From Prevotella merdae (GTDB lineage Bacteria; Bacteroidota; Bacteroidia; Bacteroidales; Bacteroidaceae), in assembly GCF_900290275.1 (NCBI RefSeq), contig NZ_LT985325.1, forward strand, positions 168,589 through 232,588: 64,000 bases of DNA. The letters are read 5' to 3'. The notes beneath the pieces are model-generated. The model saw only the letters and a list, made by a program, of their open reading frames with translations. It had not been told where the DNA came from and did not search any database. The position numbers and the translations under genes are program-made. Each line of letters opens with the position of its first letter. The stretch's first letter is position 1. Positions 13,125 through 23,414 of this stretch are shown in pieces.

Positions 13125-15986
13125 ATGCCAGTACAAAGTGAAGCTGCCCTCGAAAACGGACTTATAGATACTCTTCAAAAGATGAACTACGAGTATGTTC
13201 ATATTGAAGAGGAGAAGAACCTGTCTGCAAATTTCAAGAAACAGTTGGAGAAACACAACAAGAAGAAGTTGGAAGAATTGGGTCGTACAGAATTTACAGA
13301 GTCTGAGTTCGAAAAAATACTTATCTATCTTGAAGGTGGCACTCGCTTTGAAAAGGCAAAGAAACTGCGTGACCTATTTCCGCTTGAACTGGAAAGCGGT
13401 GAACGCCTATGGGTGGAGTTCTTGAACCGCACTCACTGGTGTCAGAACGAGTTTCAGGTTTCCAATCAGATTACGGTTGAGGGCAGAAAGAAATGCCGTT
13501 ACGATGTGACGATACTTATCAATGGTCTGCCTTTGGTTCAAATAGAACTGAAGCGTAGAGGCGTAGAGTTGAAACAGGCATATAATCAGATACAACGCTA
13601 TCACAAGACTTCTTTCCATGGACTGTTTGATTACATCCAACTGTTCGTCATATCCAATGGTGTAAACACTCGCTATTTTGCAAATAATCCGAATAGCGGA
13701 TATAAGTTCACTTTCAACTGGACGGATGCAGCCAATGTGCCTTTCAACGACTTGGAGAAATTTGCCACAGTGTTCTTCGACAAGTGCACGTTGGGCAAGA
13801 TTATAGGCAAGTACATAGTATTGCATGAGGGCGACAAATGTCTGATGGTGCTTCGCCCTTATCAGTTCTATGCAGTGGAGAAGATTCTCGACCGTGTGGA
13901 AAACTCTAATGATAACGGCTATATCTGGCATACAACAGGTGCAGGTAAGACCTTGGCATCATTCAAGGCAGCCCAACTCGTATCAGAGTTGGACGATGTT
14001 GACAAGGTGATGTTTGTGGTTGACCGCCACGACCTCGACACGCAGACGCAAGCCGAATACGAGGCTTTTGAGCCTGGTGCCGTTGACAGTACAGACAACA
14101 CAGACGAATTGGTGAAGCGTCTGCACAGTAATTCAAAGATTATTATTACCACCATTCAGAAACTTAATGCAGCTGTCAGCAAGCAGTGGTATAGCAGTCG
14201 TATAGAAGAAATACGTCATTCTCGCATCGTGATGATATTCGATGAGTGTCATCGAAGCCATTTCGGAGAATGCCACAAGAACATCGTAAAGTTCTTCGAC
14301 AACACGCAGATATTCGGCTTTACTGGCACACCTATCTTTGTTGAGAATGCGGTGGACGGACATACCACAAAGGAAATCTTTGGCAACTGTCTTCACAAAT
14401 ACTTGATAAAGGATGCCATTGCCGATGAAAACGTGCTTGGTTTCCTTGTGGAGTATTACCACGGTAATGAGGATGTGGATAATGCCGACCAAGACCGCAT
14501 GACAGAGATTGCCAAATTCATCCTTAATAATTTCAATAAGTCAACATTCGATGGAGAGTTTGACGCATTGTTTGCCGTGCAGTCAGTGTCGATGCTAATC
14601 CGTTACTACAAGATATTTAAGAGCCTCAATCCGAAGATAAGGATTGGAGCCGTTTTCACATACGCTGCCAACAGTAGTCAAGACGATGAGCAGACTGGTA
14701 TGAACACTGGCGGTTTTGCAAGCGAAAGTACAGGCGAGGCAGACGAGCTGCAAGCCATCATGGATGATTATAATAATATGTATGGAACGAGTTTTACCAC
14801 AGAAAACTTCCGTGCATATTACGATGACATCAACCTCCGCATGAAGAAAAAGAAGGCAGACATGAAGCCTCTTGACCTTTGCTTGGTTGTCGGTATGTTC
14901 CTTACTGGCTTTGACAGCAAGAAACTCAACACTCTCTATGTTGATAAAAACATGGAGTATCACGGATTATTGCAAGCGTTCAGCCGTACCAACCGTGTGT
15001 TGAATGAGAAGAAGCGTTTCGGTAAGGTCGTTTGCTTCCGCGACTTGAAAAGCAAGGTGGACGAGTCTATCAAACTTTTCAGCAACAGCAATAATCTTGA
15101 AGATATTGTGCGCCCACCATTTGATGATGTCAAAACCCACTATCAAGAGCTGACAAAGAACTTCTTAGAGCATTATCCAGAACCGCACTATGTGGACTAT
15201 TTGCAGAGTGAGAACGACAAGAAGCAGTTTATCCTCGCTTTCCGTGACATCATCAAGAAGCATGCAGAGATACAGGTCTATGATGAATTTGAAGAGGATG
15301 ATCCAGACCTCGGAATGACCGAACAGGAGTTTATGGACTTCCGCAGCAAGTATCTTGATATATACGATTCGTTTGCTGTGCAAAACAAAGAGCAGCCAAC
15401 AACATACCAAGTATCAGAGGACAATCCCAGCATGGTTGGTGAACCAGACCCTCAACAAGAAGCTGCTACAGGCATGGGAGATATAGATTTCTGCTTGGAA
15501 CTTCTGCATAGCGACATCATCAATGTTGCCTATATATTGGAGTTGATTGCAGACCTTAATCCATACAGTGAGGATTATTCAGAGAGGCGCAAGCACATCA
15601 TCGACACAATGATTAAGGATGTCGAACTTCGTAGTAAGGCAAAACTCATTGACGGATTTATCCAGAAGAATGTGGATGATGATCGTGACAATTTCATGGC
15701 TCGCAAACAAAAGGCTGATGGTACAAGCGACCTTGAAGAACGGTTGAACAACTACATCGTCACCGAACGTAACAATGCAGTCAATACGCTTGCGAAAGAT
15801 GAGGATTTGGATGTTTCCGTGCTCAATCATTACCTCTCGGAATATGACTACTTGCAAAAGGAACAGCCTGAAATCATACAAGAGGCTCTCAAGGGCAAGC
15901 ACCTCGGACTGATAAAGAGACGCAAGGCATTAACAAGAATACTCGATAAATTGCGTTTGATTATAAGAACATTTAGTTGGGAATAA
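13125..15986 (+). CDS. hsdR: type I restriction enzyme R subunit
   Basis: The 953-residue motor and nuclease subunit cuts unmodified DNA at a distance after ATP-driven translocation. An N-terminal PD-(D/E)XK nuclease is marked by Asp127 (RYDVTI) and the Glu141-x-Lys143 pair in QIELKRRG. The SF2 helicase core has GAGKT at 272-276, DECH at 373-376, the TGTP motif, and GMFLTGFDSKKLNTLY plus QAFSRTNRV in the second RecA fold. It is the first gene of an operon with a peptidase-like gene and hsdM; the gap to the next start is 3 nt. Confidence 0.95.
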   Translation: MPVQSEAALENGLIDTLQKMNYEYVHIEEEKNLSANFKKQLEKHNKKKLEELGRTEFTESEFEKILIYLEGGTRFEKAKKLRDLFPLELESGERLWVEFLNRTHWCQNEFQVSNQITVEGRKKCRYDVTILINGLPLVQIELKRRGVELKQAYNQIQRYHKTSFHGLFDYIQLFVISNGVNTRYFANNPNSGYKFTFNWTDAANVPFNDLEKFATVFFDKCTLGKIIGKYIVLHEGDKCLMVLRPYQFYAVEKILDRVENSNDNGYIWHTTGAGKTLASFKAAQLVSELDDVDKVMFVVDRHDLDTQTQAEYEAFEPGAVDSTDNTDELVKRLHSNSKIIITTIQKLNAAVSKQWYSSRIEEIRHSRIVMIFDECHRSHFGECHKNIVKFFDNTQIFGFTGTPIFVENAVDGHTTKEIFGNCLHKYLIKDAIADENVLGFLVEYYHGNEDVDNADQDRMTEIAKFILNNFNKSTFDGEFDALFAVQSVSMLIRYYKIFKSLNPKIRIGAVFTYAANSSQDDEQTGMNTGGFASESTGEADELQAIMDDYNNMYGTSFTTENFRAYYDDINLRMKKKKADMKPLDLCLVVGMFLTGFDSKKLNTLYVDKNMEYHGLLQAFSRTNRVLNEKKRFGKVVCFRDLKSKVDESIKLFSNSNNLEDIVRPPFDDVKTHYQELTKNFLEHYPEPHYVDYLQSENDKKQFILAFRDIIKKHAEIQVYDEFEEDDPDLGMTEQEFMDFRSKYLDIYDSFAVQNKEQPTTYQVSEDNPSMVGEPDPQQEAATGMGDIDFCLELLHSDIINVAYILELIADLNPYSEDYSERRKHIIDTMIKDVELRSKAKLIDGFIQKNVDDDRDNFMARKQKADGTSDLEERLNNYIVTERNNAVNTLAKDEDLDVSVLNHYLSEYDYLQKEQPEIIQEALKGKHLGLIKRRKALTRILDKLRLIIRTFSWE

Positions 15987-15989
15987 TAT

Positions 15990-16646
15990 ATGAGTTCGAT
16001 AAAAGTAATAAATACGATAAGGCTTTGTTCTAAAGGTGTCCTTGCAAAGGATGCCAATGGAAAGTATGTAAAGTTGCATAAACGCCAAGGAGATATGGAT
16101 GGAGCTTGCTCTGTCTATTCTTTGGCGATGGCATTGCTGTGCCTTGGCGTAGTAACAGAGGATGACTTGAATATTTACAACAAGCCAGATAGACGGACTC
16201 AGAAAGGTAAATTTTTAAGTCATTTCCTTGAAGAACAAGGCTTGGTAAGGAACGGATATTACTTTTCAACACTTGCAAAAGAAATCAACGAACAAGACTT
16301 TGGAATTATTGCAACACGAAAGTGTCGACAAGATACCAATGACATTATAGATATAATAGCCGATACTCTTGATGAAGAAATGCCTGTTATTATATCAACC
16401 GATTTTCCTGATGGTGGGCATGCAATGCTTGCAGTTGGTTATGAAACGAACAATGAAGAAGATGCAATAACAAAAATTCTGTGCTTAGACCCAAGTGAAG
16501 AAGCACCTAATTTTTCATCGTGGAACTGCATCATTGATGTTGCACATAAATACAGCAAGTCTGAATATCCATTTGACAACATAACAAAATCCCAGTCTTA
16601 CAAAGTAGCATTGGGAGATATTTTAATAATAGAAAAAAGGAAATAA
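15990..16646 (+). CDS. papain/C39-like putative cysteine peptidase in the hsd operon
   Basis: This 218-residue protein has no signal peptide or membrane segment. Three segments appear in the order of a papain-like active site: QGDMDGACSVYSLAMAL (Gln33, Cys40), GGHAMLAVGYE (His144) and LCLDPSE (Asp167). They suggest a C39-like or related cysteine peptidase, amidase or transferase fold. It is placed 3 nt after hsdR and 4 nt before hsdM, so it is translated as part of the R-M operon. I know of no standard type I subunit like it. Its substrate could be the R or M subunit, a phage protein or a host protein. The fold is inferred from motifs only. Confidence 0.6.
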   Translation: MSSIKVINTIRLCSKGVLAKDANGKYVKLHKRQGDMDGACSVYSLAMALLCLGVVTEDDLNIYNKPDRRTQKGKFLSHFLEEQGLVRNGYYFSTLAKEINEQDFGIIATRKCRQDTNDIIDIIADTLDEEMPVIISTDFPDGGHAMLAVGYETNNEEDAITKILCLDPSEEAPNFSSWNCIIDVAHKYSKSEYPFDNITKSQSYKVALGDILIIEKRK

Positions 16647-16650
16647 CGAT

Positions 16651-18204
16651 ATGAGCGAAGAATTACAACAGAAACTCCGTGACCAACTTTGGGAAGTCGC
16701 TAACAAACTGCGTGGCAATATGTCGGCAAGTGACTTCATGTACTTCACCCTTGGCTTTATCTTCTACAAGTATTTGTCGGAGAAGATGGAGCAACACGCC
16801 AATGATGCATTGGTGGATGATGAAGTTACGTTTAAAGAACTGTGGGCAATGGAGAAAGACGAAGATATAGAAGAACTTCAGGAGGTTGTCAAGACCGAAT
16901 GTTTGGAAAATATCGGCTACTTCATTGAACCAAACTTCCTGTTCTCGTCTGTCATTGAGAGCATTAAGAGAAAGGAGAACATTCTGCCTATGCTCGAACG
17001 CTCTTTGAAGCGTATTGAGGACAGTACCCTCGGACAGGACAGCGAAGAAGACTTTGGAGGTCTATTCTCTGACATTGACCTTGCTTCACCCAAGTTGGGC
17101 AAGACTGCCGATGACAAGAATACTTTGGTAAGCAACGTACTTCTTGCACTTGATGATATTGACTTTGGTGTGGAGGCATCGCAAGAGATTGATATTCTCG
17201 GTGACGCCTACGAGTATATGATTAGCCAATTTGCCGCAGGTGCTGGCAAGAAAGCTGGTGAGTTCTACACTCCTCAGGAAGTGAGCCGTATCTTGGCAGA
17301 GATCGTAACCATCGGTCATGCTCGTCTGCGCAATGTCTATGACCCAACTTGCGGTAGTGGTTCGCTGTTGCTACGTGCAGCAAGCATAGGTCATGCAAAC
17401 GAGATTTTCGGACAGGAGAAGAACCCTACGACCTACAACTTGGCTCGCATGAATATGCTTCTTCATGGCATAAAGTTCAGCAACTTCCGCATAGAGAATG
17501 GTGATACCTTGGAGGCTGATGCTTTTGGCGATACTCAGTTTGACGCTGTGGTAGCAAATCCTCCTTTCTCTGCCGAATGGAGTGCAGCCGATAAGTTCAA
17601 CAACGATGATCGTTTCAGTAAGGCAGGACGCTTGGCACCACGCAAGACAGCCGACTATGCCTTTATTCTCCACATGATTTACCACCTCAATGAGGGTGGC
17701 ACAATGGCTTGTGTCGCTCCTCATGGCGTGTTGTTCCGTGGCAATGCCGAGGGCGTAATCCGCCGTTTCCTCATTGAGAAGAAGAACTATGTGGATGCCA
17801 TCATCGGTCTGCCTGCCAATATCTTCTATGGCACAAGCATCCCGACATGTATCTTGGTGTTCAAGAAATGCCGTAAGGAGGATGACAACATTCTGTTCAT
17901 TGATGCCAGCAAGGAGTTTGAAAAGGTCAAGACCCAGAACAAACTCCGTCCGCAGCATATCAAGAAGATTGTTGACACCTATCGTGAGCGCAAGGAGATA
18001 GAAAAATACAGTCATCTTGCCACACTGCAAGAAGTAGCTGAGAACGACTACAACCTCAACATTCCTCGCTATGTGGATACGTTCGAGGAAGAAGAACCTA
18101 TCGACATCCATGCTGTCATGAAGGAAATCAAGGACCTGGAAGGCAAACGTGCTGACCTTGACAAGGAGATTGAATGGTATTTGAAAGAGTTAGGAATTAT
18201 TTAA
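16651..18204 (+). CDS. hsdM: type I restriction-modification M subunit
   Basis: The 517-residue N6-adenine methyltransferase subunit carries the helical N-terminal HsdM domain (residues 1-150). Motif I is DPTCGSG at 231-237, for S-adenosylmethionine, and motif IV is NPPF at 303-306. With an S subunit it methylates the recognition site, and with HsdR it forms the restriction complex. The C-terminus is a coiled segment that usually contacts HsdS. It is separated from hsdS by two accessory genes. Confidence 0.95.
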   Translation: MSEELQQKLRDQLWEVANKLRGNMSASDFMYFTLGFIFYKYLSEKMEQHANDALVDDEVTFKELWAMEKDEDIEELQEVVKTECLENIGYFIEPNFLFSSVIESIKRKENILPMLERSLKRIEDSTLGQDSEEDFGGLFSDIDLASPKLGKTADDKNTLVSNVLLALDDIDFGVEASQEIDILGDAYEYMISQFAAGAGKKAGEFYTPQEVSRILAEIVTIGHARLRNVYDPTCGSGSLLLRAASIGHANEIFGQEKNPTTYNLARMNMLLHGIKFSNFRIENGDTLEADAFGDTQFDAVVANPPFSAEWSAADKFNNDDRFSKAGRLAPRKTADYAFILHMIYHLNEGGTMACVAPHGVLFRGNAEGVIRRFLIEKKNYVDAIIGLPANIFYGTSIPTCILVFKKCRKEDDNILFIDASKEFEKVKTQNKLRPQHIKKIVDTYRERKEIEKYSHLATLQEVAENDYNLNIPRYVDTFEEEEPIDIHAVMKEIKDLEGKRADLDKEIEWYLKELGII

Positions 18205-18207
18205 GTG

Positions 18208-18623
18208 TTAAGTGTTAGTGATTAGTGATTAAGTTATGAGAGATAGTATTTTGAAAAACAAAAGTAAGGCTTTTGCTTTAAGGGTTATACGCTTATATAA
18301 ATATCTGTGTGATGAGAAGAAGGAATACATTCTCTCCAAGCAACTGATGCGTAGCGGTACAAGTATCGGAGCTAACATTGCAGAGGCTTTCTATGGTCAA
18401 AGTGAAGCCGACTTTATTTCAAAACTGTCAATTGCGCAAAAAGAGACAGGAGAAACTATGTATTGGTTAGAACTCTTGCATGAAAGCGATTTTTTAAGAC
18501 ACAACGAATATGATAGCATATATAACGATGCCGAAGAGTTGATAAAATTATTAACTTCTTCTATTAAGACCGTGAAAGAAAAATCACGGCAAGCAAACTT
18601 AATCACTAATAACTAAAACTTAA
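18208..18623. repeat. 26-bp inverted repeats flanking the four-helix-bundle gene
   Basis: The arm at 18208-18233 and the reverse complement of 18598-18623 agree at 24 of 26 positions. The arms are made of degenerate heptamers (TTAAGTG, TTAGTGA). They start 3 nt after the hsdM stop and end 8 nt before the DUF1016 gene, enclosing one complete gene. In the operon mRNA they would form a long stem with the gene in its loop, the layout of an intervening sequence in bacterial 23S rRNA. Confidence 0.75.
18236..18616 (+). CDS. four-helix-bundle (IVS/S23-type) protein
   Basis: The 126-residue all-helical protein shows the family signature QLMRSGTSIGANIAEAFYGQSEADFISKLSIAQKE split over residues 37-71, then a helix around ETMYWLELL. 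Relatives are encoded by intervening sequences inside 23S rRNA of spirochaetes and others, and are also common as stand-alone genes in Bacteroidetes. The biochemical role is unknown; a homopentamer that binds nucleic acid has been proposed. It sits between hsdM and the nuclease gene and is enclosed by inverted repeats, so it may be a small insertion unit rather than an R-M component. Confidence 0.85.
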   Translation: MRDSILKNKSKAFALRVIRLYKYLCDEKKEYILSKQLMRSGTSIGANIAEAFYGQSEADFISKLSIAQKETGETMYWLELLHESDFLRHNEYDSIYNDAEELIKLLTSSIKTVKEKSRQANLITNN

Positions 18624-18631
18624 TACATAAT

Positions 18632-19738
18632 ATGACATTGGCAAGTAATAGCGAGTTTAAAAGCTGGGTCTCGCAGTTGAAAAAAGATATACGCAGCGCA
18701 CAGGTTAAGGCGGCAATCAAAGTGAACACAGAATTGCTTCGCCTTTATTGGCGTATGGGTGCAGGTATTTGCGAAAAGCAGAAATCTGCATCTTGGGGCG
18801 ATGGCTGGTTCAAAGAATTGAGCCGTGAGCTTATGGCGGAGTTTCCAGATATGAAAGGGCTTTCATACAGGAATCTACAATACATTAGACAATGGTATCT
18901 CTTTTATAATCAAGGAAATATAATTGTGCAACAAGTTGTTGCACAATTACAAGAAGGACATGGGCAACAACTTGTTGCCCAAATTAGCGAGGAGGCTTTC
19001 TTCTCCGTTCCTTGGGGGCACCACTTGTATATCATATCGCAATGCAAGGATGTTGATCGTGCCGTGTTCTACTTGAAAAAGACAGTAGAAAATGGTTGGA
19101 GCCGTGCTGTTCTGCTCAATTATCTTGATACCAATCTGTATGAGCGACAGGGAAAGGCAGTAAACAATTTCAATAGATTGTTGGCTAATCCACAAAGCGA
19201 ATTGGCTGCTCAAACATTGAAAGACCCTTATAATTTCGATTTCCTCACACTTGATGGTGAATACAGAGAGCGAGAATTGGAACAGGGACTTACCCAAAAT
19301 GTCACACGCTTCTTGCTTGAATTGGGTACGGGCTTTGCTTTTGTCGGGAGTCAAGTTCCACTACAAATTGGAGAAGATACGTTATATCCCGACTTGCTTT
19401 TCTATCATTTGGAACTGCGCTGCTATGTGGTCGTTGAGCTGAAGATTACGAAATTCAAAGCAGAACATCTGGGACAGTTGGGCGTATATGTGAGTGCAGT
19501 CAATCATATAAAAAAGAAGCCTACTGACAACCCTACGATAGGTTTGCTTATCTGCAAAACCAAGAACAATGTGATGGCTCAATATGCTCTCGAATCAACC
19601 AATCAGCCAATAGGCATCTCCGAATATCAGTTATCTAAGCTCATGCCTGAAAACATACAGAGCCAGTTGCCTACAATTGAAGATATTGAAGCAACACTTT
19701 CTGATATAAAGGAGACTAAGGATTTCAAAAAAGGGTAA
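18632..19738 (+). CDS. DUF1016 / YhcG-type PD-(D/E)XK nuclease
   Basis: The 368-residue protein has the N-terminal DUF1016 region (WRMGAGICEKQ, GLSYRNLQYIRQWY) and a C-terminal PD-(D/E)XK nuclease-like domain with Pro253-Asp254 (LYPDLLFYH) and Glu269-x-Lys271 (VVVELKITKFK). Such proteins often lie in or next to type I R-M loci. They are presumed to be nucleases; no defined reaction is established. Residues about 97-118 are encoded by two in-frame DNA palindromes (18922-18980), an unusual insertion between the two domains. Confidence 0.85.
   Translation: MTLASNSEFKSWVSQLKKDIRSAQVKAAIKVNTELLRLYWRMGAGICEKQKSASWGDGWFKELSRELMAEFPDMKGLSYRNLQYIRQWYLFYNQGNIIVQQVVAQLQEGHGQQLVAQISEEAFFSVPWGHHLYIISQCKDVDRAVFYLKKTVENGWSRAVLLNYLDTNLYERQGKAVNNFNRLLANPQSELAAQTLKDPYNFDFLTLDGEYRERELEQGLTQNVTRFLLELGTGFAFVGSQVPLQIGEDTLYPDLLFYHLELRCYVVVELKITKFKAEHLGQLGVYVSAVNHIKKKPTDNPTIGLLICKTKNNVMAQYALESTNQPIGISEYQLSKLMPENIQSQLPTIEDIEATLSDIKETKDFKKG
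18922..18980. repeat. two in-frame palindromes within the DUF1016 gene
   Basis: A 13-bp-arm palindrome (18922-18948, centre 18935) and a 9-bp-arm palindrome (18962-18980, centre 18971) share the core GCAACAA-TTGTTGC. They translate as Gln/Val-rich residues with a QQxVAQ motif twice. Confidence 0.75.
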
Positions 19739-19980: not shown

Positions 19981-21225
19981 ATGACAATGACAATAAATAA
20001 CGAACATAAGAAACTCAATGTCCCAAATCTCAGATTTAAGGAGTTTCAGGGGGAGTGGAAAGAGAGTACCATTGGAGAAATGTTTGATTTGTATTCTGGC
20101 AACACCCCAAGCCGACTTAACAAAGAGCATTTCAAAGGGACTGTTAATTGGATTTCAAGTGGTGAGTTGAAAGAACATTATATATACTCTTCCAAAGAAC
20201 AAATATCGGAGGAAGCAGCCAAAAGTCTAAAGCTGCTACCTGTGGGTACTTTTGTTATCGCAATTTATGGTTTGGAAGCTGATGGTGTAAGAGGGACAGG
20301 CTCAATAACACAAGAACCTTCAACAATTAGCCAAGCATGTATGTCTTTCATCCCAAAAGGAGTGATTGAAAATGAGTTTCTATATTCGTGGTACAAGAAA
20401 CATGGTAATGTGATTGGCATTAGATACGCACAAGGTACAAAGCAACAAAATCTTAGTTATGACATCTTGGAGAAATTCAGAATTGCATATCCAAATACCA
20501 AAGAACAAGAAAAACTGAATAAGTTTATTTCTCTTCTTGACGAGCGCATTGCGACCCAAAACAAAATCATTGACAAATTGCAGTCCTTAATCAAGGGACT
20601 GGAGGACAATTTATTAGATAATCCTTTGTGGGAAAAGACATATTTACGTTCATTTATGCAATTCTTCCCTACCAATTCGCTATCATGGGAGCAACTGGGT
20701 TATAAAGAAGGTGCAATTAGGAATCTACATTATGGTTTAATACATAGTTTTCAGACACGTGGAATTAACTCTGCCTCTTTACCGATGATTAAAAATGAAG
20801 CAGTACCTAAGCAATATGTATTATGCCAAGTTGGAGATGTTGCTTTTGCTGATGCTTCAGAAGATACTGGCGAAATAGCTAAATCCGTAGAATTTGTTGA
20901 TACTATTGAAGGTGATACAATCTGTGGATTACATACTATTCATGGTCGTGATATAAAGAACAGGACAGTTGTAGGCTTCAAAGGCTTTGCATTTAATTCA
21001 CGTTATTTCCATAATCAAATCAAGCGATTGGCACAGGGGACAAAAGTGTTTTCAATAACAGCAAACAACCTTTCTTCTTGTTATGTCTATCTCCCTGATT
21101 TAGAAAAACAAAAAGCTATAGTTAAATTGCTAAGATCTTATGAAGAGCAACTTATAATTGGCAGAATGATTTTGAAACAATACGAAAAACAAAAGCAGTA
21201 TCTGCTTCGCCAAATGTTCATATAA
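19981..21225 (+). CDS. hsdS: type I R-M specificity subunit, expressed copy
   Basis: The 414-residue subunit sets the DNA sequence recognised by the methylase and nuclease. It has two target-recognition domains (about residues 10-165 and 215-385). Each is followed by a conserved helix: SLLDERIATQNKIIDKLQ (centre, about 183-200), and the C-terminal helix ends in YEKQKQYLLRQMFI. The first 14 residues (MTMTINNEHKKLNV) lie outside the inverted repeat and supply the fixed start. The rest can be exchanged with the silent copy. Stop codons of the two copies overlap tail to tail. Confidence 0.93.
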   Translation: MTMTINNEHKKLNVPNLRFKEFQGEWKESTIGEMFDLYSGNTPSRLNKEHFKGTVNWISSGELKEHYIYSSKEQISEEAAKSLKLLPVGTFVIAIYGLEADGVRGTGSITQEPSTISQACMSFIPKGVIENEFLYSWYKKHGNVIGIRYAQGTKQQNLSYDILEKFRIAYPNTKEQEKLNKFISLLDERIATQNKIIDKLQSLIKGLEDNLLDNPLWEKTYLRSFMQFFPTNSLSWEQLGYKEGAIRNLHYGLIHSFQTRGINSASLPMIKNEAVPKQYVLCQVGDVAFADASEDTGEIAKSVEFVDTIEGDTICGLHTIHGRDIKNRTVVGFKGFAFNSRYFHNQIKRLAQGTKVFSITANNLSSCYVYLPDLEKQKAIVKLLRSYEEQLIIGRMILKQYEKQKQYLLRQMFI

Positions 21226-21910
21226 ACATCTGGCGGAGCAAGTATTGCTTCTGTTTTTGATAGCATTCTCCCAATAGGGTAGCTTTCCTTTCTTTCTCTG
21301 TAATGGTATTTAGCATTTTGGCTATAGCCTTTTGTTCTTCGATTACAGGAAAACGATGCTTAGTGTTGAAGTAATCTGTTATAGAAACATTTAACAGGCC
21401 ATGATTTCTCGCCCCTTCACCAGCAATATCAGACAAGCCTCTATGCCATTTAGTTGATTCGAAGTAATAGGTAAGATAATCAGAATCAACTATGGTTTCA
21501 TTTATTTTGAAGCATATATAGAGAGTTGATAGAACACCTTCGTCATAATTGTCTAATCGTTTGACGGCTCCCCAATCATATCCAGCAGAGTAACTTCTGT
21601 TATAAGCAAATTCTCCTTTATGAAGCAAATAATATCCTGTAAGATTTTCGCTTGCAACGGATTTGTTAAAGAATGATTCTTGATTAACTAGACCATATTG
21701 TGCAGCGATAGTTAGCACTAATGAACACTTGGAATCCTTGTTTTTTGTAGCTATGCGAGAACTAAAGTCACTCATCTTGTAAGTAGACAGTGCTTGCTCA
21801 AATCCCTCAATACGACACATAGGATTTTTTTGGTTTGGAGAACAAAAGACCTTTTCAATAATCGCGGATTTTAGCTTCTTCAAGTCCTCAATGATTTTGT
21901 TTTGGGTCGC
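20551..21910. repeat. inner 23-bp inverted repeat of hsdS
   Basis: Positions 20551-20573 recur perfectly inverted at 21888-21910, in the codons of the central helix (ATQNKII). Matches extend further outward with a few mismatches. Inversion here would exchange only the second target-recognition domain, so combined with the outer repeat four specificities are possible. Confidence 0.82.
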
Positions 21911-22381
21911 TATGCGCTCATCAAGCAAAGACAGAAACTTACCTATTTTCTTTTGCTCTTGTAAACAAGGCCTCTTGTTAGGCAACATTTCAAAGGCAGA
22001 CTTAGATATTATGGGAACGGCTTGCACAGCAATAGATGACAAATAACGAGGAAAAGCACTCTGTATAGCGTAGTAAACAAACTCATTGTCGTTATTGTCA
22101 TTGACCACAATAGAATTTATTTGCTGATTTGTTGACATTTCTTTTGTAGCCATTCCTGCTTTACCAATAGTAGAACCTATACATGTTACAAGAACGCTAC
22201 CTTTTGGCAATGTCCTTGTTTTTGAAAAACCTTGGGCAGACAACATGGTCTTTGTCTCTGTAATTGACTTTATTGTCCCTAAATCAGCAGGAGAAGCCCA
22301 AAGATATGTTCCATTTTCGTAATTCTCAATATCTTTAGTTGGAGGAGTGTTGCCTGTTACTACTTTTCCGTAATCTCCCAA
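21218..22381 (-). CDS. silent hsdS cassette
   Basis: The 387-residue frame encodes two target-recognition domains, with SLLDERIATQNKIIEDLK in the middle and QKQYLLRQMFI at the end, matching the helices of the plus-strand hsdS. Its coding frame runs up to 22432 through the shared repeat, but an in-frame TAA stands just beyond and there is no ATG; the frame's first possible start at 22381 is a TTG. It therefore looks like a reservoir of specificity domains rather than an independently expressed gene. The domains differ clearly from those of the expressed copy. Confidence 0.85.
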   Translation of the reverse strand: MGDYGKVVTGNTPPTKDIENYENGTYLWASPADLGTIKSITETKTMLSAQGFSKTRTLPKGSVLVTCIGSTIGKAGMATKEMSTNQQINSIVVNDNNDNEFVYYAIQSAFPRYLSSIAVQAVPIISKSAFEMLPNKRPCLQEQKKIGKFLSLLDERIATQNKIIEDLKKLKSAIIEKVFCSPNQKNPMCRIEGFEQALSTYKMSDFSSRIATKNKDSKCSLVLTIAAQYGLVNQESFFNKSVASENLTGYYLLHKGEFAYNRSYSAGYDWGAVKRLDNYDEGVLSTLYICFKINETIVDSDYLTYYFESTKWHRGLSDIAGEGARNHGLLNVSITDYFNTKHRFPVIEEQKAIAKMLNTITEKERKATLLGECYQKQKQYLLRQMFI

Positions 22382-22487
22382 CTTGCATTTCTCCCACTCC
22401 CCCTGAAACTCCTTAAATCTGAGATTTGGGACTTAATGGTTTTCTTTTCTCTAATTATTATATAGACCTTTAAAATTAAGGATTACA

Positions 22488-23414
22488 ATGACAACAAAAA
22501 CAATTAGAGAAATTGCGTTGGCTTGGAAAAGTGACAAGCAACGCTATGTTAAGCAGTCTACATACGCTGCTTATGTGTTAATTTTGGAGAACCACATTCT
22601 GCCATCATTTGGCGATTGTGAGGCTCTGGGTGAGAAACTTGTGCAGGAGTTCGTTTTGCAGAAACTGAATGGCGGTCTAAGCATTAAGACGGTGAAGGAT
22701 ATCCTTATAGTCTTGAAAATGGTGATGAAGTTCGGAGTAAAGAACGAATGGATGAACTATTGCGAGTGGGACATCAAGTACCCTACGACAGAGACCAACA
22801 AGGAAATTGAGGTACTGACGGTGGCACACCATAAGAAGATACTCGATTTCATCAAACAGAACTTCACATTCCGCAACCTCGGCATCTACATCAGTTTAAC
22901 CACCGGATTGCGCATCGGCGAGATTTGCGGCTTGAAGTGGTCGGACATCAACACCGACAATGGTACTATCACTGTGAACCGTACCATTGAGCGTATCTAC
23001 ATTGTGGATGATGAGCGCAAGCATACAGAATTGATTACAAACACGCCAAAGACCAAAAACTCATGCCGTGAGATACCTATGAACAAGGAACTTTTAGCTA
23101 TGGTGAAGCCACTAAAAAAGGTAGTCAATGCAGACTTCTATGTACTGACTAATGAGGAAAAGCCTACAGAGCCACGCACTTACCGCAACTACTATCATCG
23201 GTTGATGAAGCGTCTCGACATACCTCGGCTGAAATACCACGGACTGCGCCACAGTTTTGCTACGCGCTGCATTGAAAGCAACTGCGACTACAAGACAGTA
23301 AGTGTATTGCTCGGCCATGCCAACATAACCACGACACTCAATCTATATGTTCATCCAAACATAGAGCAGAAAAGAAAATGTATTAGCAAGATGTTCAAGT
23401 CTCTTGGAAAATAG
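22488..23414 (+). CDS. tyrosine recombinase (putative hsdS invertase)
   Basis: The 308-residue site-specific recombinase has an N-terminal SAM-like core-binding domain (residues 1-100) and a catalytic domain. Catalytic residues are Arg142 (TTGLRIGEICGLKW), His251 and Arg254 (HGLRHSFATR), His277 (LLGHANITTTLNLY) and Tyr287. It lies 56 nt from the outer inverted repeat of hsdS, the usual position of enzymes that invert type I specificity genes. An origin as an integrase of the whole island cannot be excluded. Codons appear ordinary for the region. Confidence 0.92.
   Translation: MTTKTIREIALAWKSDKQRYVKQSTYAAYVLILENHILPSFGDCEALGEKLVQEFVLQKLNGGLSIKTVKDILIVLKMVMKFGVKNEWMNYCEWDIKYPTTETNKEIEVLTVAHHKKILDFIKQNFTFRNLGIYISLTTGLRIGEICGLKWSDINTDNGTITVNRTIERIYIVDDERKHTELITNTPKTKNSCREIPMNKELLAMVKPLKKVVNADFYVLTNEEKPTEPRTYRNYYHRLMKRLDIPRLKYHGLRHSFATRCIESNCDYKTVSVLLGHANITTTLNLYVHPNIEQKRKCISKMFKSLGK

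Follow-up and report, generated by a model that had tools for sequence, protein, structure and literature searches.

The window analysed here, a 64,000-nucleotide stretch of the Prevotella merdae contig NZ_LT985325.1, contains a type I restriction–modification (R-M) operon. Its hsdR gene (13125..15986, plus strand; TIGR00348) is followed by a C39-peptidase-like gene (15990–16646) and by hsdM, which encodes the methyltransferase subunit (16651..18204, plus strand; TIGR00497, 464 bits). Next comes a small gene for a 126-aa four-helix-bundle protein of the PF05635/TIGR02436 family (18236..18616, plus strand), hereafter IVP, enclosed by a left arm (18201..18235, plus strand) and a right arm (18596..18630, minus strand) of an inverted repeat. 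The downstream neighbour on the plus strand (18632..19738; PF17761, PF06250) is a DUF1016/YhcG gene with a PDDEXK nuclease domain. It precedes hsdS (19981–21225), a minus-strand ORF read as a second hsdS without a profile scan (21218–22381), and a tyrosine recombinase gene (22488–23414), and the stretch from 19981 to 23414 has the layout of a phase-variable specificity locus. The C39-peptidase-like gene product is only 32%–33% identical to its counterparts in L195, L200 and L202, where hsdM is 85%–96% identical, and the hsdR/hsdM junction resembles a slot at which accessory genes are exchanged. Imperfect palindromes (caacaagttgttg, caacaacttgttg) occur at 18919–18980 inside the DUF1016/YhcG coding sequence.

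The window IVP matched PF05635 with 104.8 bits (cut-off 33.8) and TIGR02436 with 117.8 bits (cut-off 24). These matches and the arms confirmed the first-pass annotation in describing a gene of the rRNA intervening-sequence (IVS) family between inverted repeats in an R-M operon. According to the inverted-repeat search, the arms are 35 nt each and 89% complementary. Each consists of five tandem heptamers of the TTAGTGA/TTAAGTG type, which in phase, as read from the sequence, are TTAAGTG, TTAAGTG, TTAGTGA, TTAGTGA and TTAAGTT on the left and, in inverted orientation and given here as reverse complements, TTATGTA, TTAAGTT, TTAGTTA, TTAGTGA and TTAAGTT on the right. The 26-bp repeats (24/26 matching) noted previously are a real pair that forms only the inner part of these arms, and they had been thought to begin after the hsdM stop codon, which actually lies within the left arm (18202–18204). 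The IVP start codon directly follows the left arm, the IVP stop lies inside the right arm, and a single base separates the right arm from the ATG of the DUF1016/YhcG gene. The arm pair scored 50, compared with 17, 35 and 48 at the 50th, 95th and 99th percentiles for arms swapped between loci. A search of the 64 kb for TTAGTGATTAGTGATTA with up to three mismatches returned the two arms only, although two matches were also reached in 5 of 100 shuffles.

As in an IVS, an S23p ORF is bounded by complementary ends; no 23S rRNA gene surrounds the unit, and an Rfam scan of the whole window gave one tRNA only. The arms enclose the PF05635 ORF and an antisense 69-aa frame left out of the profile scan, with no transposase among these contents. 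No reverse transcriptase was found among the seven neighbour proteins that were profile-scanned at 13.1–23.4 kb.

The same packaging is general in the family. In a first sample, made up of the window, five relatives in viral contigs and the 80 best among 588 relatives from named genomes, the median arm score was 41, against 17 (95th percentile 35) for arms swapped between loci. Lag-7 autocorrelation reached 0.41/0.39 in the 120-nt flanks and 0.26–0.28 in ORFs and distant flanks, so that the period of seven is confined to the flanks of PF05635 ORFs. With an arm pair called at a score of at least 26, which 8% of swapped pairs from different loci reach, 194 of 234 distinct PF05635 loci with both flanks (many of them interrelated) had an arm pair and 40 fell below the cut; concordant period-7 arrays in both arms were present at 136. 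Among other genes of 90–200 aa in 2.0 Mb of three genomes, an arm pair was found at 19 of 447 and concordant arrays at four. Eight IVP genes lay inside these unbiased control stretches, five with arms and three with concordant arrays. Heptamer-rich repeats flanking the same family in other genomes had been anticipated by the first-pass annotation, which took their absence from other copies as the outcome that would speak against it; since 194 of 234 loci share the packaging, that outcome did not occur.

Loci with arms come from Bacteroidota, Bacillota, Spirochaetota, Cyanobacteriota and Chloroflexota; in the class of a genome labelled Gammaproteobacteria, 26 of 29 loci have them, and no LSU rRNA was detected at the 20 of these 29 loci that were scanned. 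IVP scored above the cut-off in 220 of 296 genomes from the phylum of a Prevotella genome, 11 of which had at least 15 matches; G202, in which all candidates were scored, has 15 copies. In the class of the genome labelled Gammaproteobacteria, 56 of 321 genomes carry IVP, mostly as a single copy. One 5.5-kb locus (L041) contains two IVP genes with DNA 87% identical.

The arms are tandem arrays of 7-nt, sometimes 8-nt, units, a period of eight being preferred in 22 of 152 loci. The median array length is 32 nt, with four to five units in 162 of 272 arms. After rotation, the units fit a common frame, A-R-T-K-N-N-N (A 97%, purine 94%), which carries 5.0 bits compared with 4.1 (maximum 4.3) for shuffled units. 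The two arms of one locus agree closely (unit distance 0–1 letters in 67 of 91), whereas only 6.6% do so between loci. Different IVP copies of one genome may carry different units (e.g., L061 and L074, or the ten copies of G696). Units of about 8 nt (AAGGTTCT and similar) recur at a conserved site in L274, L145, L127, L275, L097 and their relatives. Two further properties were considered and rejected: coupled arm lengths, prompted by a Nostoc locus (L372) with one heptamer fewer per arm, gave a Spearman coefficient of 0.26 that was non-significant without long arms, and arms acting as a frame-independent stop cassette gave 2.22 frames with a stop, compared with 2.10 for permuted units.

The heptamer is linked to the protein. 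Among 130 distinct loci, considering only pairs without any common neighbour gene, the unit distance was 0–1 in 56 of 64 pairs above 70% protein identity (34 loci), in 193 of 457 pairs at 60%–70% identity and in 99 of 1861 pairs below 40%. This comparison shows a heptamer that differs between loci yet tracks the IVP lineage, to other places too. Slippage offers another explanation, in which the arrays arise by polymerase slippage at hairpins, gene conversion makes the two arms similar and the gene has no part in the process. Many genomes contain an excess of heptamers, ascribed to slippage in the accessible text of PMC4692102 and PMC4679880, and in Flavobacterium and Nostoc the copy number shifts by single heptamers between related loci. 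However, slippage would not account for concordant arrays at 136 of 234 PF05635 genes against 4 of 447 others, nor for a unit that follows the protein between places without common neighbour genes. Slippage is disfavoured on the basis of the control genes, and we give it very little credence.

The AlphaFold2 model of the window IVP has four helices (pLDDT 93.3), and its best structure matches were 2RLD (BT_0352, 56% identity) and 2GSC (Xcc0516), each with five chains per entry. The title of the paper on one solved relative reportedly speaks of five four-helix bundles. Recognition of the heptamer by the IVP protein is likely, and several signals point to residues that might take part. Between equally identical proteins whose units differ, residues 4, 53, 107 and 109 vary most, exceeding the maximum of 40 permutations, and a further comparison gave a similar picture; covariation with unit position 6 was seen for residues 68 and 75. 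Overall, the suggestive covariation signals fall at residues 4, 53/54, 61–75 and 105–111. Several of these residues should lie towards one end of an up-down-up-down bundle. With 68 independent pairs, no column passed correction (best p 1.2e-4 of 690 tests); therefore, a residue-to-base code is a lead only.

The first-pass annotation had interpreted the unit as an RNA-level parasite with a functional stem, that is, an intervening sequence whose arms are kept for pairing in mRNA and for cutting by RNase III. In silico, the RNA of the window unit folds strongly (z = −4.7, with 0 of 100 shuffles equally stable), as expected of any inverted repeat, and the order of heptamer variants in its two arms is mirrored at z = 2.0. 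Selection on pairing in the sense RNA should favour G·U over A·C mismatches. Across 132 loci, however, the arms contained 142 G·U and 177 A·C mismatches; without a G·U excess, nothing indicates that the sense RNA is under selection. Over 48 loci, variant order was mirrored no better than in in-phase shuffles (mean z 0.15, s.e. 0.19). Co-directionality with neighbour genes, considered as a sign of an RNA route, was set aside as weak and barely above the local background (89/86% vs. 81/75% for 68 control genes). In favour of such a parasite, the accessible text of PMC4990558 describes in vitro RNase III cleavage of rRNA intervening sequences that encode this protein family, and heptamers in the Coxiella one. 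Nevertheless, the mismatches, the unmirrored variant order and the presence or absence of the unit at the DNA level, described below, all run against the functional stem proposed earlier, and we consider its maintenance in mRNA improbable. On balance, the arms resemble a single putative protein-binding word arrayed twice, in opposite orientations, and not a stem that is maintained.

The first-pass annotation had also suggested a search for sites with and without the unit, and both kinds exist, in R-M operons, Flavobacterium and Nostoc. Among 30 relatives of hsdM with flanks of 1.5 kb (some shorter), only L194 has an IVP gene within the flanks. Its hsdM is 98% identical to that of the window, but its IVP, 79% identical and with the same heptamers, lies between hsdR and hsdM instead; read from the sequence, the final codons of hsdR there give way to the left arm, which provides the stop codon. 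Twelve of 13 close hsdM loci, with hsdM 79%–96% identical in these twelve, have no IVP copy in their flanks; absence at the window's exact junction is known only from related operons with other downstream genes. At a Flavobacterium junction before a cobU-like gene, read from the sequence in 30 species, five species have an IVP gene (one apparently interrupted), ten have ORF-less heptamer hairpins, one has an arm remnant, seven have short gaps without heptamers and seven have other repeats or are unclear. Three Nostoc plasmids carry the unit in place of approximately 330 nt of a gene for a DNA cytosine methyltransferase, which three others have intact. Comparison of homologous gene junctions shows presence or absence of the whole unit, arms and gene together. 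No target-site duplication was found at the sites compared, where the flanks of filled and empty sites are too diverged or have been replaced.

Other features adjoin these sites. The uninterrupted methyltransferase gene of the Nostoc comparison (L186, L371, L372) has one CAATTCG, the heptamer of the unit, at the left boundary, and targeting of insertion by the heptamer word is possible there. A second small repeat (approximately GCGTTAGGGATAG...GGGAACGCC) occurs at the same Flavobacterium junctions as the heptamer units in L226, L230, L231, L235 and L241, and also adjoins IVP in L042 and L066. An annotated DNA methylase or R-M gene lies near the PF05635 gene in five of the eight plasmid regions first sampled (L186, L187, L190, L192, L193).

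A few pairs of loci are extreme in their divergence. In Nostoc, the synonymous difference is 0–0.026 in the IVP gene and 0.28–0.32 in its neighbours; for L403/L405 the corresponding values are 0.039 in the unit and 0.42 in the neighbours, and for L175/L177 they are 0.058 and 0.51. The converse swap is seen in L130, which has the neighbours of L143, L167, L169 and L185 (synonymous difference approximately 0.3) but an IVP that differs from theirs (non-synonymous difference 0.29) and a different unit. Pairs of this kind would be expected from homing-like spread to preferred junctions. Among 33 non-overlapping pairs at the same site, the unit was less diverged than its neighbours in 23 (p 0.20), so there is no general shift in divergence between unit and neighbours; in same-site pairs picked by their flanks, IVP was less diverged in 109 of 166 (with some loci entered twice) and in 100 of 148 without those. 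The homing case rests on a few pairs, extreme in either direction, and is not general. A higher identity of ORFs than of flanks in 18 of 20 pairs was discarded as biased because the pairs had been picked by ORF identity. Recent duplication within a genome was likewise rejected: identical pairs were one place sampled twice or had identical flanks (L319/L320, two places of G202), and no fresh jump was caught among the loci compared, since identical copies have identical flanks.

These patterns also bear on whether IVP is instead part of a host regulatory module, binding the heptamer arrays as RNA or DNA and controlling its own operon, with gain and loss by ordinary recombination. TRAP, a ring-type regulator, provides a model for such a role. 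Purifying selection on the IVP gene is strong (dN/dS 0.03–0.12 where computable, among the 30 closest of 521 pairs), and the unit is kept at the same site in several Flavobacterium species, which is also compatible with a host gene, with no general excess conservation of unit over neighbours. Arm edges lie near stop and start codons; in 56 of 107 loci, no more than 7 nt separate the arm edge from the upstream stop. TAACTGA arrays just 5' of start codons have been proposed to act in translation, according to the accessible text of PMC4679880. However, neighbour genes change from site to site, from R-M genes in the window to recF, a DMT transporter, helicases and methylases in annotated plasmids; the Nostoc unit interrupts a gene; and swapped units in similar flanks together with near-identical units in diverged flanks are what a mobile unit would be expected to produce. 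A host regulator is thus rather unlikely, though it is the alternative that we take most seriously.

Hairpins of the same heptamers without an ORF extend the range of the unit. In 800 kb of G696, hairpins of periods 7 and 8 numbered 19 and 15, whereas those of periods 5, 6, 9, 10, 11 and 12 numbered 1, 4, 6, 0, 0 and 1. From 1.2 Mb of this genome, 36 ORF-less period-7/8 hairpins in 16 unit families were kept, and eight of these families matched the genome's own IVP flanks, compared with 16% for random locus sets outside the genus (p 0.0004; nine of the ten IVP loci, L289 being unusable, and base composition unmatched). The mean coverage by the genome's own IVP flanks was equalled by 0 of 5000 random sets; under a stricter score, the match gave p 0.07–0.15. 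In G202, five ORF-less hairpins matched its own IVP genes with p 0.27, and none were found in G076. The sharing of units between ORF-less hairpins and the IVP genes of their own genome, as judged from these matches, is therefore significant in one of two genomes testable.

A second comparison concerned the AGTTATG-bearing protein of L291. Among 101 Flavobacterium genomes, the median number of (ARTTATG)x3 windows per genome was 12 for the 15 that have a relative of at least 69% identity and 0 for the other 86; any such window was present in 14 of 15 and 39 of 86, respectively. The contrast gave p 5e-7, or 0.003 after subtracting six for the gene's own arms, with the 69% cut set after the list had been seen and with phylogeny and genome size uncontrolled. 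G664, which has a 74% relative, contains no ARTTATG array, and the relative found in G697, the richest genome with 76 windows, is only 53% identical. These comparisons show ORF-less hairpins that seemingly share their heptamers with IVP units, within one single genome and across genomes that have a close relative of the IVP. At L297, two heptamer hairpins enclose a glutamine-amidotransferase gene, an arrangement that looks like chance.

Our results suggest that the window feature is probably one copy of a minimal transposase-less mobile DNA unit, consisting of a gene for the pentameric IVP protein closed by inverted heptamer arrays. The anatomy, generality and DNA-level gain and loss of the unit are well supported. 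The IVP ring would bind an array such that each subunit takes one heptamer (5 × 7 = 35 nt, as long as an arm of the window unit) and could hold the two unit ends together. A host polymerase, recombinase or reverse transcriptase might then, with IVP, copy or move the unit into gene junctions, and the same junction would sometimes be re-entered in a homing-like manner. The unit encodes no transposase or nuclease, and the sites compared gave no target-site duplication, which counts against this scheme for insertion. ORF-less hairpins could be satellites served in trans. The inverted arms would form a stem in mRNA, and a unit landing in a 23S rRNA gene would become an intervening sequence trimmed out by RNase III; rRNA intervening sequences would thus be unit copies in 23S genes. 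IVP units may also be a source of the heptamer repeats long seen in bacterial genomes.

If this is true, a mobile unit without a recognisable recombinase would join three puzzles, namely the entry of intervening sequences into rRNA, the role of the very common genes annotated as 'four helix bundle protein' and the origin of intergenic heptamer repeats. The specificity of the family could perhaps be read from hundreds of natural protein–word pairs, which would make the recognition question directly testable. A bolder and more tentative proposal, which we favour less than the unit itself, is that PF05635 constitutes a class of transposase-less mobile elements over many phyla, in which the pentamer reads a lineage-specific 7-nt word, one per subunit, by a residue-to-base code and spreads any word-capped hairpin; the cyanobacterial, Xanthomonas and Beggiatoa heptamers and the rRNA intervening sequences would then all be its products.

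REPIN/RAYT and IS/MITE systems combine one gene-bearing form with short palindromic forms that have matching ends. The IVP unit and the ORF-less hairpins may form such a pair, with matching ends seen in G696 and in the Flavobacterium set but short of significance in G202. Unlike REPIN/RAYT, the IVP unit has no HUH transposase or other known catalytic domain, and its ends are heptamer arrays that vary between copies. Weaker structure matches of the window IVP included the Avd protein from the Bordetella phage retroelement and one chain from a retroelement ribonucleoprotein (4DWL, 8UBE; Foldseek TM 0.85 and 0.79 by target length, E 0.09 and 0.17), indicating a similar fold in the Avd proteins of diversity-generating retroelements, and a kinship of PF05635 with Avd is stated in the accessible text of PMC10053308. 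Such retroelements have a reverse transcriptase nearby, and the profile scan of seven proteins around the window IVP gave none.

The 23S rRNA intervening sequence of Coxiella, as described in the accessible text of PMC4990558, resembles the window unit in its protein family, in having an ORF between complementary ends and in its size of approximately 0.4 kb. Its tandem GACAGAT heptamers, variable in number, lie upstream of the ORF, whereas the window unit has lineage-specific heptamer arrays on both sides; it is located in 23S rRNA, whereas the units here occur in intergenic or coding DNA in up to 15 copies (G202); and its ORF is described as decaying, whereas IVP genes are under strong purifying selection. 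GACAGAT fits the A-R-T-K-N-N-N frame with one exception. In the open-access literature searched, the accessible texts mention heptamers beside a PF05635-family ORF for Coxiella only, and nowhere make heptamer flanks a property of the family. The BrickBuilt MITE of P. gingivalis, with a 23-nt unit (PMC4596501, accessible text), is unrelated.

Heptamer simple sequence repeats (SSRs) are known from several other lineages. The accessible text of PMC4692102 reports GGGAATC arrays in Xanthomonas, one genome of which has 70 inverted pairs, as well as GGGGA(T/C)T arrays in Nostoc and, cited from Helicobacter pylori, GTGATTA, a heptamer identical to the window's own unit; the same text describes heptamer SSRs as generally without association to mobile elements. 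Planktothrix IVP arms consist of AATCCCC, the complement of GGGGATT. Like IVP arms, the TAACTGA, GGGAATC and GGGGA(T/C)T repeats are 7-nt arrays, mostly intergenic, that fit the frame with at most one exception, whereas no link to PF05635 is described for them in the accessible texts of PMC4679880 and PMC4692102. TAACTGA on the other strand fits the frame fully. The TAACTGA arrays of Beggiatoaceae lie mostly before start codons (PMC4679880, accessible text), which is the position of the right arm in IVP units.
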